A stretch of DNA of 64,000 bases from Prochlorococcus sp. AG-424-E18 (GTDB lineage: Bacteria; Cyanobacteriota; Cyanobacteriia; PCC-6307; Cyanobiaceae). The DNA lies in contig QCNC01000001.1 of assembly GCA_003210155.1 (NCBI GenBank), positions 1 to 64,000 of the forward strand. The letters are read 5' to 3'. The notes under the pieces are model-generated. The model was not told the DNA's origin and ran no database searches. It saw only the letters and a list, made by a program, of their open reading frames with translations. The number at the start of each line of letters is the position of its first letter. Position 1 is the first letter of the stretch. A program made the translations under genes and the position numbers. Positions 32,222 to 37,323 of the stretch are shown here, one piece after another.

Positions 32222-33010
32222 TTGAAAAATATTGGTTTAATTTTATTTGACATCGATGGTGTAATACGCAGCGTAGAAAATAGTTATAGGCTTTCATTAA
32301 AAAAAACAGTGTGCAAATTTTGCGGATGGGAGCCAAGTTATATAGATATTGATAATGCAAAAAATGAAGGGATATGGAACAATGACTGGGATTTAAGTCT
32401 AGAGCTTATAAAAAGATATATAAAAAAAGAGAACTTAAAGCTTGCAATACCTCCAATAGAATCAATAGTTAAGTGTTTTGAAGAGTTTTACTTTGGAGGC
32501 GACCCAAATAAAGATAGTAAATATTGGTCTGGATCTATAATAAATGAGGAATTATTAGTTGATAAAGAGTTTTTTGATTCATTACAAAGCAATGGAATAA
32601 TTTGGGGTTTTGTCAGTGGTGCAGAGTCTGCTTCTGCAAAATTCGTTTTAGAAAAAAGGCTTGGACTAAAATCACCTCCATTAATATCCATGGAAGATGC
32701 CCCTGAGAAGCCTAATCCTAAAGGTTTTATTAATTTATCAAAAAAGCTTCTTAGAAATAAACTTGGCGTATCAAATATTCCCATTGCATATGTAGGAGAT
32801 ACTATTGCAGATATAAATACGGTTATAAATGCTAGAAAAGAAATTCCATCTCAAAAATTCATAAGCATTGGAATATCTCCCCCTCATTTACACTTAAAGT
32901 CAAGATTAAAAGAACGTAAGGAATACGAAAAAAATCTAAAAAATGCAGGTGCTGACTTAATTTTAGATTGTATTAATGACGTTAAAAATATTAATCTTGC
33001 CCTATTTTGA
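32222..33010 (+). CDS. HAD-superfamily phosphatase (TIGR01548-like)
   Basis: A 262-residue HAD hydrolase with motif I FDIDGVIRSVE (D10 nucleophile, D12), motif II FVSGAES, a downstream lysine and motif IV YVGDTIADI. Length and the RSVENSYR segment resemble the TIGR01548 family, in some cases fused to histidine-biosynthesis enzymes; no fusion is seen here. Substrate unknown. It starts with TTG at 32222, 85 bases after cobJ on the same strand. It is the last gene before the disrupted tRNA-Ser region. Confidence 0.82.
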   Translation: MKNIGLILFDIDGVIRSVENSYRLSLKKTVCKFCGWEPSYIDIDNAKNEGIWNNDWDLSLELIKRYIKKENLKLAIPPIESIVKCFEEFYFGGDPNKDSKYWSGSIINEELLVDKEFFDSLQSNGIIWGFVSGAESASAKFVLEKRLGLKSPPLISMEDAPEKPNPKGFINLSKKLLRNKLGVSNIPIAYVGDTIADINTVINARKEIPSQKFISIGISPPHLHLKSRLKERKEYEKNLKNAGADLILDCINDVKNINLALF

Positions 33011-33202
33011 AGATTTAATAATTGAAAAAATATTTTTAATTGATTACTGAAAGAGACTTCTTTAGAGTTAGTTCACATAACATAATAAAAAAAATAAAGG
33101 TAAATTTCTGATTTATTATCCTGGATTATGACTTCTATATTTTTTGAAAATTTTAACTGATTTTTTAAAATAAAGGGTTCAATATAAATTTTATCAAAAC
33201 AA

Positions 33203-34356
33203 TTATTTATCTATCTTATTAAATATTGAATCAGCAACTAATTTATTACCATGAGGAGTGATATGAACAAAATCCATGAAGTAATAGCCAGGATTTTTAA
33301 ATGAACTCCCATAGAAAATATCTGATAAAGATGTTCCATTAAATTTATGTAACCTATTTTTATATGAATTATTAAGATTCTTATAGTGACCTGAGGATAA
33401 TTCCAAAAAACATAATGAAGATTTATTAGTTTCTCCTATTGCTTTTAAGTATTTGTAGTCAGATTTTTTTAAGAGGTGAAAATTTAGAGTTGGCTGTAAA
33501 AAGTGATAAAAAATACCGCCGTTAGACTCTGTATAATTTTTTGCCTTGATTAAAGAATCGTAATAAGACGCCCATGTTTTTTAAAAATCGATTTTGTTGA
33601 AATTATCTACCGTACATTTAGTAATATTTTTAGATCTAAGTTCTCCCCTTAAACTCTTCTTTATTTTTGAACTCAAATTATAAAAATTTGAATTACCTGC
33701 TAAAAAATTTCTTAAATCAGAGAAAAAAAATCCTAATCTATTATCTTGGTTGTAGCCTATTATTGACCCCTCTGATTTTTGGTAAATTTCTCTTTGAACA
33801 ACGTCATTTGCTCCATCATAAAAAATAACAATGTCATTTTTCTTTATAGGAATTTTTAGTAATCTTTGAAGCTGTTGTGTGACCACAAAAGAACTAAAAC
33901 CATGATTTATAACTTTAGTTTTATAGTTTTTTTTATTTAATTCTTTTTGTAATAGAGATGGAATTGTAAAGTTATCTGATGATCCTATTCCAAAGATGGT
34001 GGATCCTCCAAATACATGAACTTTTCTTTCAAAAAAAACAGGTTGATAAGTTGTTACCCTTTTATTATCTTTGACAGAAATTCCTGCACAAGACCAATTT
34101 TGATTTTTATATCTAACAAGTGATCCGTCTGTATCCTTAGAGATAATTTTTTCTCTAGGACAATAATAATGCGAATGAAATGTTTTAAACTCATCTTCTA
34201 ATTCTGCATAAGCCTTTTCTTTAATTTCTGCGAAGCGATTATTTTTTGTATTATTATCGTTCTTTTGTAAAAATACTGCAGCAAAATATTCTAAGCCTAA
34301 AATTAACCCACCTAAAACAATAAAATTTAATATATGATTTTTTTAAATTTTTTCAT
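33203..34356 (-). pseudogene. Broken SGNH/GDSL hydrolase gene, membrane-anchored
   Basis: One minus-strand frame runs from about 34335 to 33203 with a single internal TAA at 33581-33583. Conceptual translation gives an N-terminal anchor (NFIVLGGLILGLEYF), block I VFGGSTIFG, block III DGAND and block V DFVHITPHGN, the full Ser/Asn-Asp-His set of SGNH esterases. The natural ATG at 34356 (MKKFKKII...) is out of frame by one base. Restoring one A in the seven-A run (T run 34338-34344 on the plus strand) joins it to the frame, giving about 384 residues. Both lesions together make an inactive gene likely. A fragment from 33886 would keep block III only. Related SGNH proteins act on acylated polysaccharides. 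Confidence 0.8.
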
Positions 34357-34497
34357 ACATTTTGCGATTTAGAACAAAACCCGCAAATCATTCTCAGGAA
34401 TAAAAAATTTTTCTAGATTAAAAAACATAATATTTTTTTATCGGTAAGTTAAATATAATTTTAATAATAATTCACTAAGCACAGACACTACATATTT

Positions 34498-34566
34498 TTA
34501 TATCGATTGTCTTATAAGTAGATCTGCTACCTCAGCAAACTCTTCAAACTTCCACGAACCAAATAT
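34498..34566 (-). pseudogene. Coding-like C-terminal remnant ending at the repeat
   Basis: The frame reads FGSWKFEEFAEVADLLIRQ then SI and TAA at 34498-34500, with a stop upstream at 34564-34566 inside the 23-bp repeat. The amphipathic protein-like text and absence of a start suggest the tail of a gene cut at the recombination point. It is not recognised, and chance cannot be excluded. Confidence 0.35.
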
Positions 34567-34580
34567 TTACGGAGAGGGAG
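34558..34580. repeat. Direct repeat of tRNA-Ser 3' end (candidate att site, distal copy)
   Basis: This 23-base sequence matches 35962-35984 at 21 positions, with differences only at the ninth and eleventh bases. The shared part includes CGGAGAGGGAG, the last 11 bases of the tRNA-Ser gene, plus 12 bases of 3' flank. A copy of a tRNA end about 1.4 kb away in the same orientation is the hallmark of site-specific integration. Confidence 0.7.
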
Positions 34581-34651
34581 TTACTCGGAGTGAGTCTTGA
34601 AGGCACTCTATGACAAGTATAGGGAAGGCAAAAAGATGATGATAATGAGAA

Positions 34652-34674
34652 TTATCCCCTAATTTATCCCCTGA
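34652..34674. repeat. Pair of TTATCCCCT words, left cluster
   Basis: TTATCCCCTAA (34652-34662) and TTATCCCCTGA (34664-34674) lie 12 bases apart in direct orientation, 70-95 bases inside the distal repeat. The same word recurs near the tRNA-side repeat. Clusters like this resemble recombinase or excisionase arm sites, by inference only. Confidence 0.5.
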
Positions 34675-34703
34675 GTTTATTTGTTAATTTGGAGTATTTT
34701 ATT

Positions 34704-34829
34704 TTATCCCTCGATCTCTACACTCTCATTCGGTAAACCAGTTTTACCTTTAATTTCATCTCCAAGTGATATCCACCATCTATAGTCTATTTGTTCAAAA
34801 GCAAAAAACACTTTGTAGTAAAAATCATT
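34704..34829 (-). pseudogene. Coding-like C-terminal remnant downstream of the lyase
   Basis: The minus-strand frame is open for about 41 codons with text such as FAFEQIDYRWWISLGDEIK and ends with TAA at 34704. A GTG at about 34813 could start a 34-residue protein, but there is no ribosome-binding site. Trp/Tyr-rich content suggests real coding origin. It overlaps the lyase stop by a few bases and is not recognised. Confidence 0.35.
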
Positions 34830-35730
34830 TTATATAACTATCTAAAGTTTTCTCATCTGAAACAACAATGAAATCATCAAAGTGAATCGTTTGGTCGGGG
34901 TAACTCACTCCAACTACTCGATCTCGATAGATACCGATTCTGACATGAGTTTGATAATACTGTCCACGCCAATCATAAGTGACACCATTATAATCAAACA
35001 TCAATTCCCCATCCTTATAGACTCTCACAAACCCATCGTTATCTCTTGTATTGTAGATTCCAATCTTATATGTACTCCATTCCCCTAATGGAGTCACTTT
35101 TGCTGTACCATCAACATCTCTGTCTTTATATTGACTTCTGAACTTTTCCCATCTTTGAACCCAATTTCCTTCATAGTTTTTATACTTTGATTCAATACGA
35201 TACTTGTCTTCTTTCTGCCGACTCATTTTCCTGTCATTTCCTCCAGTATCTCCTCCTATTTTCAATCTTTCTCCATTTTCGTAATAACGTAATCCTATCA
35301 AAGGACCATTCGGTCCATCATAATGCATCGTATTCTTGAACTGAAAGAATAGAACTCTATCGTCGATATGAGTAAAATCCTCTGGAAGTCTTTTTCTGAA
35401 ACTGATCCATATTTCTTTACCTAATGCCTTTTTAGGAAACGGTTGAAATTCTGCTCTTTCAGTGAATTCTTTTGTTCTTCCCTTTCGGTCCACATTATAT
35501 CCATCTTTCACAGTGACTGAGAGATACTGATTACCATCAGGATCTACCTTAATTTCAAATGGTTTTCGACCTGTACCTTTATTATTAGTCGTAAATTTAT
35601 TTGTTCTCAATCTTCCTACATTTTCATTTTCAAAGTCCTCAAAGAAATTCCAAGGAGATCGACCCTTTGAGTATGAAGTACCAGAGGTAAACACACATAG
35701 TATCAAAAAAAGGTATACAAGTTTTTTCAT
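34825..35730 (-). CDS. Secreted polysaccharide-lyase-like protein
   Basis: From the ATG at 35730 the protein is 301 residues and begins with a classic signal peptide (MKKLVYLFLILCVFTSG, cleavage near TSYS-KG). An upstream ATG at 35763 would bury the signal behind 11 residues and is less likely. The mature part is a jelly-roll-type sequence with FEDFENENVG, the FTERAEFQPF motif, WISFRKRLPEDF and HFDDFIVVSDE. It resembles the heparin-lyase-I-like polysaccharide lyase family (Pfam Polysacc_lyase), which cleaves uronic-acid polysaccharides by beta-elimination. Several arginines use CGA/CGG, whereas neighbouring genes mostly use AGA. It lies alone between the two tRNA-end repeats. The substrate is unknown. 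Confidence 0.72.
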   Translation of the reverse strand: MKKLVYLFLILCVFTSGTSYSKGRSPWNFFEDFENENVGRLRTNKFTTNNKGTGRKPFEIKVDPDGNQYLSVTVKDGYNVDRKGRTKEFTERAEFQPFPKKALGKEIWISFRKRLPEDFTHIDDRVLFFQFKNTMHYDGPNGPLIGLRYYENGERLKIGGDTGGNDRKMSRQKEDKYRIESKYKNYEGNWVQRWEKFRSQYKDRDVDGTAKVTPLGEWSTYKIGIYNTRDNDGFVRVYKDGELMFDYNGVTYDWRGQYYQTHVRIGIYRDRVVGVSYPDQTIHFDDFIVVSDEKTLDSYIK

Positions 35731-35805
35731 GTCCGAAAAAAATTTTGTGTACTTTAGCACCATCTTTTTTAATTTTTTGTCAACTCATTTTGATAACTTA
35801 GAACT

Positions 35806-35850
35806 TTATCCCCTAACAAGTCAAAAAATATCCCCTTCTTTATCCCCTAA
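35806..35850. repeat. Three TTATCCCCT-type words, right cluster
   Basis: TTATCCCCTAA occurs at 35806-35816 and 35840-35850, with a variant ATATCCCCTTC at 35828-35838. Spacings are 22 and 12 bases, about two and one helical turns. The cluster lies 110-155 bases inside the tRNA-side repeat and mirrors the left cluster in orientation and spacing. Confidence 0.5.
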
Positions 35851-35961
35851 CCCTTGAAAACTTTGTGATACGATATGATCCTTCCTGATACTAATTATTT
35901 CTCAATCATGCTTCATAGCAAGTCATATGAGCATTTTTAGAACTATATGAACCTTTCTGAA

Positions 35962-35984
35962 ACCAAATAATCACGGAGAGGGAG
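35962..35984. repeat. Direct repeat at tRNA-Ser 3' end (candidate att site, tRNA-side copy)
   Basis: This is the intact-tRNA copy of the 23-base repeat also found at 34558-34580. Bases 35974-35984 belong to the tRNA: discriminator, acceptor 3' strand and start of the T stem. The other 12 bases are 3' flank. Integration here would keep the tRNA functional. Confidence 0.7.
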
Positions 35985-36062
35985 GGATTCGAACCCTCGA
36001 CAAAAGTTACCTCCTGTAACTCCTTAGCAGGGAGCCGCTTTCAACCACTCAGCCACCTCTCC
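35974..36062 (-). tRNA. tRNA-Ser (anticodon GCU)
   Basis: The minus-strand gene is 89 bases without CCA. The acceptor stem GGAGAGG pairs with CCTCTCC, followed by discriminator G. The anticodon stem GCTCC/GGAGT closes the loop CTGCTAA, giving GCU. A long variable arm and the T loop GTTCGAATC are present, as expected for a class II serine tRNA. It decodes AGC/AGU. Its 3' end is duplicated 1.4 kb downstream. Confidence 0.97.
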
Positions 36063-36123
36063 AGTTCTTATACATTATCAATTTTTTTGCAAACAATCAA
36101 AATTTTTTATTTAATCGAAATGT

Positions 36124-37323
36124 CTAATCAACTTTAACTTTCGGTAATCTATTTTTAAAAGAACAAAGAATTTCCCAAGGAATAGTATTAGATTCTCTTG
36201 CCCAATCAAGAGGAGAAATTTTTTTATCTCCATCAGATCCAAGTAAGGTCATAGTACTACCAACTTTAACTTCATTTGAATCTGTGATGTCCACCATCAT
36301 TTGGTCCATAGTTATAGATCCAACTTGAGGATAAAAATTATTGTTATGAATTACGTTTATCTTGCCTGAAAGATTTCTTGGTACGCCATCTGCATAACCA
36401 ATACTTAATACAGCTAACTTTGTTTTTCTACTACTTACAAATTTTCCTCCATAACTTACACTTACACCTTGATCAATAATTCTTATAAAAGCTACTTTGG
36501 CTTTTAAAAATAAAGCTGGTTTAAGCAATAAATTGTTATCTATTATTGGTAGAGGATTATATCCATACATAGAAAGCCCAACGCGTACCATATCAAAATG
36601 GAAACTTTTATCAAGAAGCATACCCGCTGAATTAGCTAAATGAGTCTTAATATTTTTATTTCTATCAAAATTAATTTCATTTAATAATTTCTGAAACTTC
36701 TTCCTTTGTAAATTTGTAGTACTTTTTGAATCTAATGAGTTTAATTCATCTGCAGATGATAAATGACTATATATTCCTTCAATCAAAATATTGTCAAAAG
36801 ATTTGATTTTTTCAAATTGCTGAACAAATTTATTACATTCAAATCCTAATCTCGACATTCCGGTATCAACTTTCAGATGTAAAGAAAATTTCAATCCAAA
36901 ATGCTTCCCAATATTATTGCAAATTAAACATTCTCTTATACTACTGATAGTTGGCATAAGATCATTTTTAAAAGATATTACTAAATCCTTTTTGGTATAG
37001 AGATTGCCTAAGATAAGAATTGGTTTTTTAACTCCAGAAGAACGAAGCTTAATTCCTTCTTTTAATGTGGCAACTCCTAATTGAGAAGCTCCACCTCTGA
37101 AAGCATATTCAGATACTAATTTTGCATCATGTCCATATCCATCAGCTTTAACAACTGCCATAAATTGGCAACTTTCATTTAATTTGGATTTCAACTGCCT
37201 TACATTTGCCTCTATTGCTTTGCCTTTGACTTCTATCCATGCTCTTTGTTTTGGATCTATATCTTGTTTAAAATTTGGATATTTATCAAAATTAAATTCT
37301 TGATTAGTTTGCCGAATTTGCAT
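36124..37323 (-). CDS. alr: Alanine racemase
   Basis: The 399-residue PLP enzyme makes D-alanine for peptidoglycan. The PLP lysine is K59 in VVKADGYGHDA, and the catalytic tyrosine lies in VSYGGKF (near residue 288). The barrel motif HLKVDTGMSRLGF and the C-terminal beta domain with SITMDQMMVDIT complete the fold. The annotated N-terminus is about 25 residues longer than in E. coli. It lies just upstream, in genome order, of tRNA-Ser and is divergent from the HNH gene. Confidence 0.96.
   Translation of the reverse strand: MQIRQTNQEFNFDKYPNFKQDIDPKQRAWIEVKGKAIEANVRQLKSKLNESCQFMAVVKADGYGHDAKLVSEYAFRGGASQLGVATLKEGIKLRSSGVKKPILILGNLYTKKDLVISFKNDLMPTISSIRECLICNNIGKHFGLKFSLHLKVDTGMSRLGFECNKFVQQFEKIKSFDNILIEGIYSHLSSADELNSLDSKSTTNLQRKKFQKLLNEINFDRNKNIKTHLANSAGMLLDKSFHFDMVRVGLSMYGYNPLPIIDNNLLLKPALFLKAKVAFIRIIDQGVSVSYGGKFVSSRKTKLAVLSIGYADGVPRNLSGKINVIHNNNFYPQVGSITMDQMMVDITDSNEVKVGSTMTLLGSDGDKKISPLDWARESNTIPWEILCSFKNRLPKVKVD

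Follow-up and report, generated by a model that had tools for sequence, protein, structure and literature searches.

Genes and features of the tRNA-Ser(GCU) locus

The DNA analysed here is a 64,000-nucleotide stretch of Prochlorococcus sp. AG-424-E18 (contig QCNC01000001.1, positions 1 to 64,000; the window hereafter), and our subject is a recombinase-less unit of 1392 nt within it (34581-35972, minus strand) that is bounded by two short cores and carries a single gene for a polysaccharide-lyase-like protein; we call it the lyase element. It was delimited by means of empty sites and of five copies with near-identical ends elsewhere. The element directly adjoins a tRNA-Ser(GCU) gene (35973-36063, minus strand), which was called by ARAGORN, recurs at 120 oriented loci and is the integration target. 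Two chromosomal genes frame the site, i.e., a HAD-like hydrolase (32222-33010, plus strand) and, on the opposite side, an alanine racemase (36124-37323, minus strand). Genomes and loci compared with the window carry G and L numbers, and the genome of the window is G000.

The sole cargo is a secreted-looking protein of 312 amino acids (34825-35763, minus strand) with a match to PF14099 (Polysacc_lyase) at an E-value of 8.5e-15. Its start is likely an internal ATG near 35730 (MKKLVYLF...), because lyase copies within other ends have just that part in common in the alignment, and its N-terminus resembles a signal peptide as judged by eye. No other open reading frame longer than 68 amino acids was found in 34581-35972. 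A reading of the window made from its letters alone (the sequence-only reading) had named the lyase as the single intact gene between two repeat copies, and this holds, since the other listed frame is 68 amino acids long and runs antisense within the lyase. The AlphaFold2 model is all-beta and of low confidence (mean pLDDT 63); among PDB structures it comes closest to glucuronan lyase 2zzj (E 5.9e-9, TM 0.50/0.63), with ulvan, alginate and heparin lyases next, and the predicted identity as a polysaccharide lyase therefore seems reasonable. A phmmer search returned no meaningful PDB relative.

Homologues of the lyase at 53-56% identity, with frames of ~400 amino acids, are found in many genomes. 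One of them, longer than the lyase and 56% identical, lies in the window's own genome (L008 965-2164, G000:C2), and neither a tRNA nor a GCU-type core was found on that locus. The Pelagibacter (SAR11) homologues at L024 5001-6138 and L027 5001-6206 end at or overlap a called tmRNA gene, and tmRNA genes are another classic integration target. The lyase as phage cargo was considered and rejected, as it has no match in phage records or viral contigs.

The repeat pair and the empty site

The two repeat copies, ACCAAATATTTACGGAGAGGGAG at 34558-34580 and ACCAAATAATCACGGAGAGGGAG at 35962-35984, are identical at 21 of 23 positions and equal in orientation, as the sequence-only reading had described. 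With up to 3 mismatches allowed, the 23-bp repeat has only these two matches in the window and none in 100 dinucleotide shuffles, in agreement with the earlier view that chance is an unlikely source. The copy at 35962-35984 takes in the last 12 nt of the tRNA gene as called (35973-35984). The earlier view that such repeats mark attachment sites at tRNA 3' ends needs a refinement: integration at the tRNA 3' end is supported, while the core, judged by its behaviour in relatives, is only the 11-12 nt CTCCCTCTCCG(T) and not the 23 bp. The proximal core (35973-35984) is the tRNA 3' end, reading CTCCCTCTCCGT on the tRNA strand, and the distal core (34569-34580) is identical to it at 12/12 positions. 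The other half or so of the 23-bp repeat resembles a motif that several elements have at their proximal ends, the reason being that a second element starts at the distal copy.

The tRNA and the adjoining racemase end served as query against 200 genomes of the window's genus, of which 199 matched, some over the tRNA only. At the tRNA 120 loci were oriented, i.e., the window and 119 of the 149 other listed places, the remaining 30 lying outside this count, and 114 of the 120 were readable through to the HAD-like gene on the far side. Sixty-six of these 114 sites are empty, the HAD-like gene lying 29-72 nt from the tRNA; a single copy stands beside tRNA-Ser, as the sequence-only reading had expected of an unoccupied site. 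The other 48 carry inserts of 217-10721 nt after tRNA-Ser(GCU). A second CTCCCTCTCCG copy with at most 1 mismatch was found in 32 of the 52 occupied loci compared. It mostly lies 47-55 nt ahead of the HAD gene, the window, L017, L068, L100 and L137 being among the loci that depart from this. In many occupied loci the distal core runs straight into the empty-site flank TGATTTATTTAGAAAATTTTTAATTAATATTTG. This junction argues for site-specific integration, and, read across the genomes compared, the sites show that it takes place at the 3' end of tRNA-Ser(GCU), with a core of 11-12 nt and cores at both borders. That the repeat is a coincidence, or a piece of a duplicated tRNA that has nothing to do with integration, is hardly credible in the light of these comparisons, and no observation spoke in its favour. 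Chance was rejected on the 0 matches in 100 shuffles, and a tRNA duplication on the empty sites and on the joining of the distal core to the attB flank in other genomes.

Paired repeats inside the element ends

About 80-160 nt inside each end, the lyase element carries paired direct repeats. The proximal pair is formed by two copies of AGGGGATA on the minus strand, 12 nt apart (35829-35848; TATCCCCT at 35829 and 35841 on the plus strand), with a third proximal copy at 35807-35814 (minus strand), and the distal pair has the same sequence and spacing (34653-34672, minus strand; TATCCCCT at 34653 and 34665 on the plus strand). Lambda-type integrases use arm sites besides a core, and judging from their geometry the paired repeats are probably arm sites of this type.

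The arm-pair pattern TATCCCCTNNNTTATCCCCT has 26 matches in 18 of 266 genomes of the genus, and a reversed-pattern control has 0. Twenty of the matches are on loci showing tRNA-Ser(GCU), four further ones, on longer loci (L060, L122 and L129), belong to the same site, and the last two (G404 and G382) accompany a core and a HAD gene on a contig without tRNA. In a wider sample of the family the pair was found in 5 of 390 genomes, all of the window's genus. Seven matches in viral contigs were set aside as likely chance, with no tRNA called there and one near-core match (L218, 10/11).

The same pair geometry recurs with other sequences. Pairs of TGTTGTTGGG (L060, L131, L076) and of GGGGATGAA (L099) occur where a recombinase is present, GTGGCGAA occurs both with one (L061) and without (L115), and GGGTAGGA (L081, L100, L105, L123) and TGGTGGGTA (L126, L128, L135, L223) occur in loci with no recombinase, and the L226 element also has GGGTAGGA at its recombinase end (L240). 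To express this regularity we used an arm score, i.e., the mutual similarity of the four arm copies at the best position in fixed windows (maximum 54), run on the 38 core-bounded elements that measure 600 nt or more, the 8 shorter of 46 segments being excluded. The 38 elements average 47.8, compared with 26.9 for shuffles (largest 34) and 27.6 for displaced windows (largest 37), and 33 of them score at least 40. For two tRNA-Ser(CGA) elements a repeat search showed different, less regular repeats.

Spread of the lyase element and probable exchange of its cargo

Fifteen lyase genes share at least 70% identity, a truncated copy in G404 being excluded. Six are located at tRNA-Ser(GCU) with AGGGGATA arms, four at tRNA-Ser(CGA), three beside CGA-type cores on loci where no tRNA was called, and one at tRNA-Asn with its own 3'-end repeat, while the last (G464) shows no tRNA. 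In the tRNA-Asn case (L069 5896-7460, G152), a 70% relative of the lyase lies behind tRNA-Asn(GTT), with a 12-nt 3'-end repeat and ATGTGTTTT repeats inside both ends; its outer ends are different, and the stretches adjoining the coding sequence resemble the CGA type by eye. On the evidence of this locus, tRNA-Asn(GTT) is a third tRNA address for lyase-type cargo.

The six GCU elements have non-coding ends (209 nt proximal, 244 nt distal) that are 98.8-100% identical, the corresponding identities in the same six genomes being 85.3-96.4% for the HAD flank, 91.3-97.8% for the racemase flank and 84.4-99.8% for the lyase coding sequence. What follows the distal core also differs: four genomes have an attB-like flank there, G000 has the decayed element and G488 has other inserted genes, so that insertion beside the tRNA happened more than once. 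Near-identical ends amid divergent flanks show, as far as these genomes can be compared, that the unit spread recently and left its flanks behind. On a tree of the flanking genes, in which 69 of 114 inner branches are weak, the six lyase loci correspond to six changes, of which well supported branches force five, shuffled labels also giving about six; the change between empty and occupied is counted 32 times among 117 loci (shuffled mean about 38). The lyase and both repeats fixed in all close relatives, which the sequence-only reading had named as the pattern that would speak against its view, were thus not found. That the alr-tRNA-HAD region simply spreads by homologous recombination, site-specific integration playing no part today, is an improbable account of this distribution. 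The lyase coding sequence does seem to be exchanged between elements in this way, but the flanking genes are left behind, each of the six lyase rows counts as a change on the flank tree despite its many weak branches, and flanks that differ by up to 15% accompany the near-identical ends.

Signs of cargo exchange appear when elements at different tRNA genes are compared. GCU and CGA elements have the coding sequence as their sole common part; that of G365 (GCU) and that of G468 (CGA) are about 99% identical, and the two are apparently unrelated outside it. On the tree of the coding sequence, the changes forced by starred branches are 3 for GCU and 4 for CGA, and alleles up to 16% apart are found inside near-identical GCU ends. 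Homologous recombination within the coding sequence, between elements, would explain this pattern. The ends also occur around other contents: G477 and G537 have a proximal end equal or near-equal to that of the lyase element, with a secreted-looking protein of 122 amino acids or no open reading frame of at least 70 amino acids between the ends, and the elements of L068 and L097, about 206 nt long, hold little beyond ends.

Among the proteins of other elements, Pfam matches comprise a YadA anchor, a methyltransferase, an endonuclease/phosphatase, Poly_export, SLBB, DUF4379, a carbamoyltransferase, an arylsulfotransferase and a sulfotransferase; for four of the ten proteins scanned (those of L122, L159, L146 and L065) no Pfam family was found. 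PADLOC, run on ten proteins, gave one weak partial match (the L062 protein, E 0.0035).

Tandem elements in the window and in other genomes

In the window the distal core is followed by TAAATATTTGGTTCGTGGAAGTTTGAAGAGTTTGCTGAGG and not by the empty-site flank. This sequence strongly resembles the proximal end found in a different type of element (L134, L135, L145, L147 and L064), and the shared end motif marks an older, decayed element of that other type at 33058-34568 (minus strand), with a proximal end resembling TTTGGTTCGTGGAAGTTTATAAGAGTTCGCTGAGG and with broken-gene fragments, one of which is 33% identical over 93 amino acids to the 345-amino-acid cargo protein of L146. A decayed distal core (33047-33057, 7/11) and then an attB-like flank follow, and no recognisable arms were found in about 33058-34568. 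Since the distal repeat copy borders a second, decayed element, the window shows, on this comparison, a tandem: after the tRNA comes the lyase element, then a core, the decayed element and finally the HAD gene. A distal repeat left over from a duplicated tRNA, which the sequence-only reading had named as a finding that would speak against its view, was not what was seen, the distal repeat being the border of this older element.

Larger arrays occur elsewhere. L226 holds three elements, the middle one with a recombinase gene inside which the search reports a stop, and in L241 a recombinase-bearing element lies directly ahead of a CGA-type core and a lyase element. L223 1874-7001 (G502) is an array of three elements, of which one holds a 555-amino-acid gene and has arms of the AGGGGATA type, another is carbamoyltransferase-like, and the third, 207 nt long, consists of ends only. 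The recombinase-gene element at L226 4044-11150 (G390) has arms of different classes on its two sides, GGGGATAA/GGGGACAA on the left and AGGGTAGGA on the right, and it is perhaps a fusion of two elements. Mixed arms were also seen in the 2.7-kb insert of L129 (G325), with GGGGACAA on the left and AGGGGATAA on the right, which carries the YadA-anchor protein. L227 4710-5883 (G484) contains two complete tRNA-Ser(GCU) genes with a AGGGGATA arm pair and a racemase piece between them, part of the sequence reading N.

The tandem bears on how the lyase element should be described. The sequence-only reading proposed a 1.4-kb cargo remnant or satellite-like element; a recombinase-less element of this size is indeed there, and the word remnant fits less well, because the arm pairs are intact and the ends near-identical in six genomes, for which an intact non-autonomous element is the better description. 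A decayed remnant in the cis-mobilizable style would be an autonomous island that lost its integrase and is now fixed, or moves only with a tandem neighbour. We regard this as unlikely, even if no recombinase is encoded inside, a clearly decayed element stands in tandem in the window, and short elements directly adjoin a recombinase-bearing one in L241, L060 and L226: the same short unit is found in six genomes amid divergent flanks and different downstream neighbours, its arms are intact, and in four of the six it sits between the tRNA and an attB-like flank, with no neighbour element to ride with.

Recombinases at the site

Tyrosine recombinases matching our profile A1 (A1-type) are encoded in 4 of the 48 inserts, and two more (L099 and L142) are in loci that do not reach the HAD gene. 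Larger elements that encode a tyrosine recombinase are flanked by the same core in L060, L061, L076, L131, L099 and G358 (= L242), a situation that the sequence-only reading had anticipated. Genus-wide, at E 1e-20, 25 A1-type matches (two partial) were found in 22 of 266 genomes; there was none in the window insert, or in G000 at the same threshold. For 11 of the 18 recombinases of alignment A3, a pair agreeing at 9-10 of 10 positions with a spacing of 11-12 nt lies within 700 nt upstream; the arm pairs of L237 (= L099) and L239 are more distant than this, the L241 recombinase has a weaker upstream pair (7/10), and no upstream pair was established for those of L250, L251, L253 and L255.

The L099 recombinase gives a good model (mean pLDDT 86, pTM 0.53) with a beta-sheet N-terminal domain, and full-length lambda integrase heads its PDB matches (E 1.4e-8, with a whole-chain TM of just 0.39/0.46); the L131 recombinase has a sub-threshold match to Arm-DNA-bind_3. 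Across 13 recombinases, with arm strings that were hand-chosen, similarity of the arms correlates with similarity of the recombinase (rho 0.45 for the N-terminal, 0.32 for the middle and 0.38 for the catalytic part; permutation p 0.002-0.004).

The window's own genome also encodes a 389-amino-acid tyrosine recombinase at L183 853-2022 (G000:C3), beside a cobO-like gene as judged by eye, and most of the 46 genomes searched have a frame of similar length that matches PF00589. This resident enzyme would be at hand, being the sole PF00589 match in G000, but that it moves these elements seems very improbable: it gives no match to the A1 profile even at E 10, it is located away from the tRNA-Ser(GCU) site, and differing arms go with differing element recombinases.

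Proposed mechanism

The recombinase-encoding elements have site, core and arm geometry in common with the lyase element, and from this we infer a helper acting in trans. We consider it likely that the lyase element is a 1392-nt, one-gene, non-autonomous element at tRNA-Ser(GCU) that is moved in trans by an arm-matching recombinase. The earlier suggestion of an integrative element at this tRNA with its integrase acting in trans is supported to the extent of the empty sites and the recombinase-bearing relatives, trans action itself being the inferred part. In this scheme, a AGGGGATA-recognising tyrosine recombinase of an autonomous, tycheposon-like element would excise the lyase element as a circle, in which the distal end is predicted to be joined to CTCCCTCTCCGTGATTATTTGG, and would integrate the circle at tRNA-Ser(GCU). 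The arm sequence would then be the address deciding which helper moves which element, and passage from cell to cell may follow the helper's route, i.e., phage particle, vesicle or DNA uptake.

Several observations weigh against this proposal. Neither excision nor a circle nor transfer was seen in the sequence data compared, and a core-plus-left-end pattern, which would catch attP and attL, had no match in viral contigs. The distal core is absent at up to 1 mismatch in 20 of the 52 occupied loci compared. Five of the 38 arm scores are below 40, one of them (29) under the largest shuffle; eight of the 38 elements came from loci picked via the arm pattern or the lyase (the other 30 average 48.3), and several are near copies, so that the 38 are not independent cases. 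The six lyase-element genomes, of which G000 is 87.5% complete, gave no A1-type match, and a distant helper might escape the A1 profile. Exact AGGGGATA arms were found on none of the recombinase-bearing elements with readable arms, those of L250-L255 being partly unread, and the arm correlation follows the whole recombinase and is not specific to the N-terminal arm-binding domain.

A wider and more tentative idea, which we put at somewhat below even chances, is that the tRNA genes of Prochlorococcus are heads of cassette arrays, in which single genes without an enzyme, kept within about 450 bp of sites, would be inserted in succession, with an arm address that decides which element-encoded recombinase can move them, and would exchange their cargo between addresses by homologous recombination. 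If this is true, a gene could pass to a different tRNA and come under a different helper.

Comparison with known systems

The non-autonomous elements closest in kind are cis-mobilizable elements (CIMEs), which in the available part of their description keep attL and attR and have lost the genes for integration and transfer (PMC5704250); in Dehalococcoides, 15 ssrA islands without an integration module are possibly CIME-like, according to the portion of that paper at hand (PMC3146451). Like these and like tandem accretion in the Streptococcus ICESt1 family, as far as the accessible text goes, the lyase element is bordered by attL and attR, encodes no recombinase and stacks in tandem at the 3' end of its target gene. 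Both attachment sites are retained (cores at 35973-35984 and 34569-34580), the junctions in relatives match the empty site, and the one gene, a lyase, has no part in integration or transfer. Unlike CIMEs, the element holds a single gene in 1.4 kb, and some elements are as small as about 0.2 kb; one and the same short unit with near-identical ends is found in six hosts, and intact arm pairs of many sequence types exist. No conjugative relative turned up, and no search aimed at one was made. CIMEs derive by decay from an integrative and conjugative element or an integrative and mobilizable element; recombinase-bearing relatives do exist at the site, and any of them would be no more than a candidate for such a parent of the lyase element. 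CIMEs also move in cis with a tandem neighbour, and of this only the tandems (L223, L226, L241) were seen. An integrative and mobilizable element has its own integrase and a transfer origin or relaxase; here the sole gene is a lyase, and no transfer-origin search was made. Phage satellites (PICI, PICMI, VEIME) carry an integrase and packaging or replication genes, and a lyase as the sole gene sets the element apart from them as well.

Hackl et al. 2023 (Cell) reportedly described the tycheposons of Prochlorococcus as tRNA-targeted elements with a tyrosine recombinase and cargo genes. The lyase element is like them in its genus, its integration at a tRNA gene, its cargo and the tyrosine recombinase in the larger relatives at the site. 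In the available portion of PMC10872708, tycheposons are cited as 4-200 kb long and integrated at seven tRNA genes, with a tyrosine recombinase named as a feature; the window element, in contrast, has no recombinase and is 1392 nt long with one cargo gene. It works, as we read it, like a non-autonomous tycheposon or a CIME, yet lacks the recombinase and the size of a tycheposon. 'Cryptic elements' from the work of Hackl et al. 2023 are mentioned in the accessible part of PMC10187409. No description of such mini-elements was found among titles and abstract starts of the full-text literature, a scope beyond which Hackl et al. 2023 lies, or in the available portions of PMC10872708, PMC5704250, PMC11389934, PMC10187409, PMC12416821, PMC3146451 and PMC2784084.

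With the lambda integrase system the element shares a core in a short tRNA segment and pairs of direct repeats on both sides, and the best PDB match of the L099 recombinase is full-length lambda integrase. Unlike lambda, the window element keeps the DNA sites only, the enzyme would come from elsewhere, and the function of the arms is deduced from geometry. By analogy with integron cassettes, single genes are stored in line at a fixed head site, but with a tRNA core and arms instead of a folded attC, no search aimed at attC or an integron integrase having been made.

Significance

Prochlorococcus combines a streamlined genome with a shared gene pool of very large size, and the way in which single genes are gained and lost is the question that these elements touch; one-gene elements with a fixed tRNA address are a concrete, testable route. 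A readable arm code would predict, from DNA sites alone, the helper recombinase for each gene. The cargo includes cell-surface functions, i.e., the polysaccharide lyase, a polysaccharide export protein and the YadA anchor, and group-transfer enzymes such as the carbamoyltransferase and the sulfotransferases; it is speculation that cargo of these two kinds could bear on phage adsorption. Small elements coming and going at one site could let single genes shuffle between cells.

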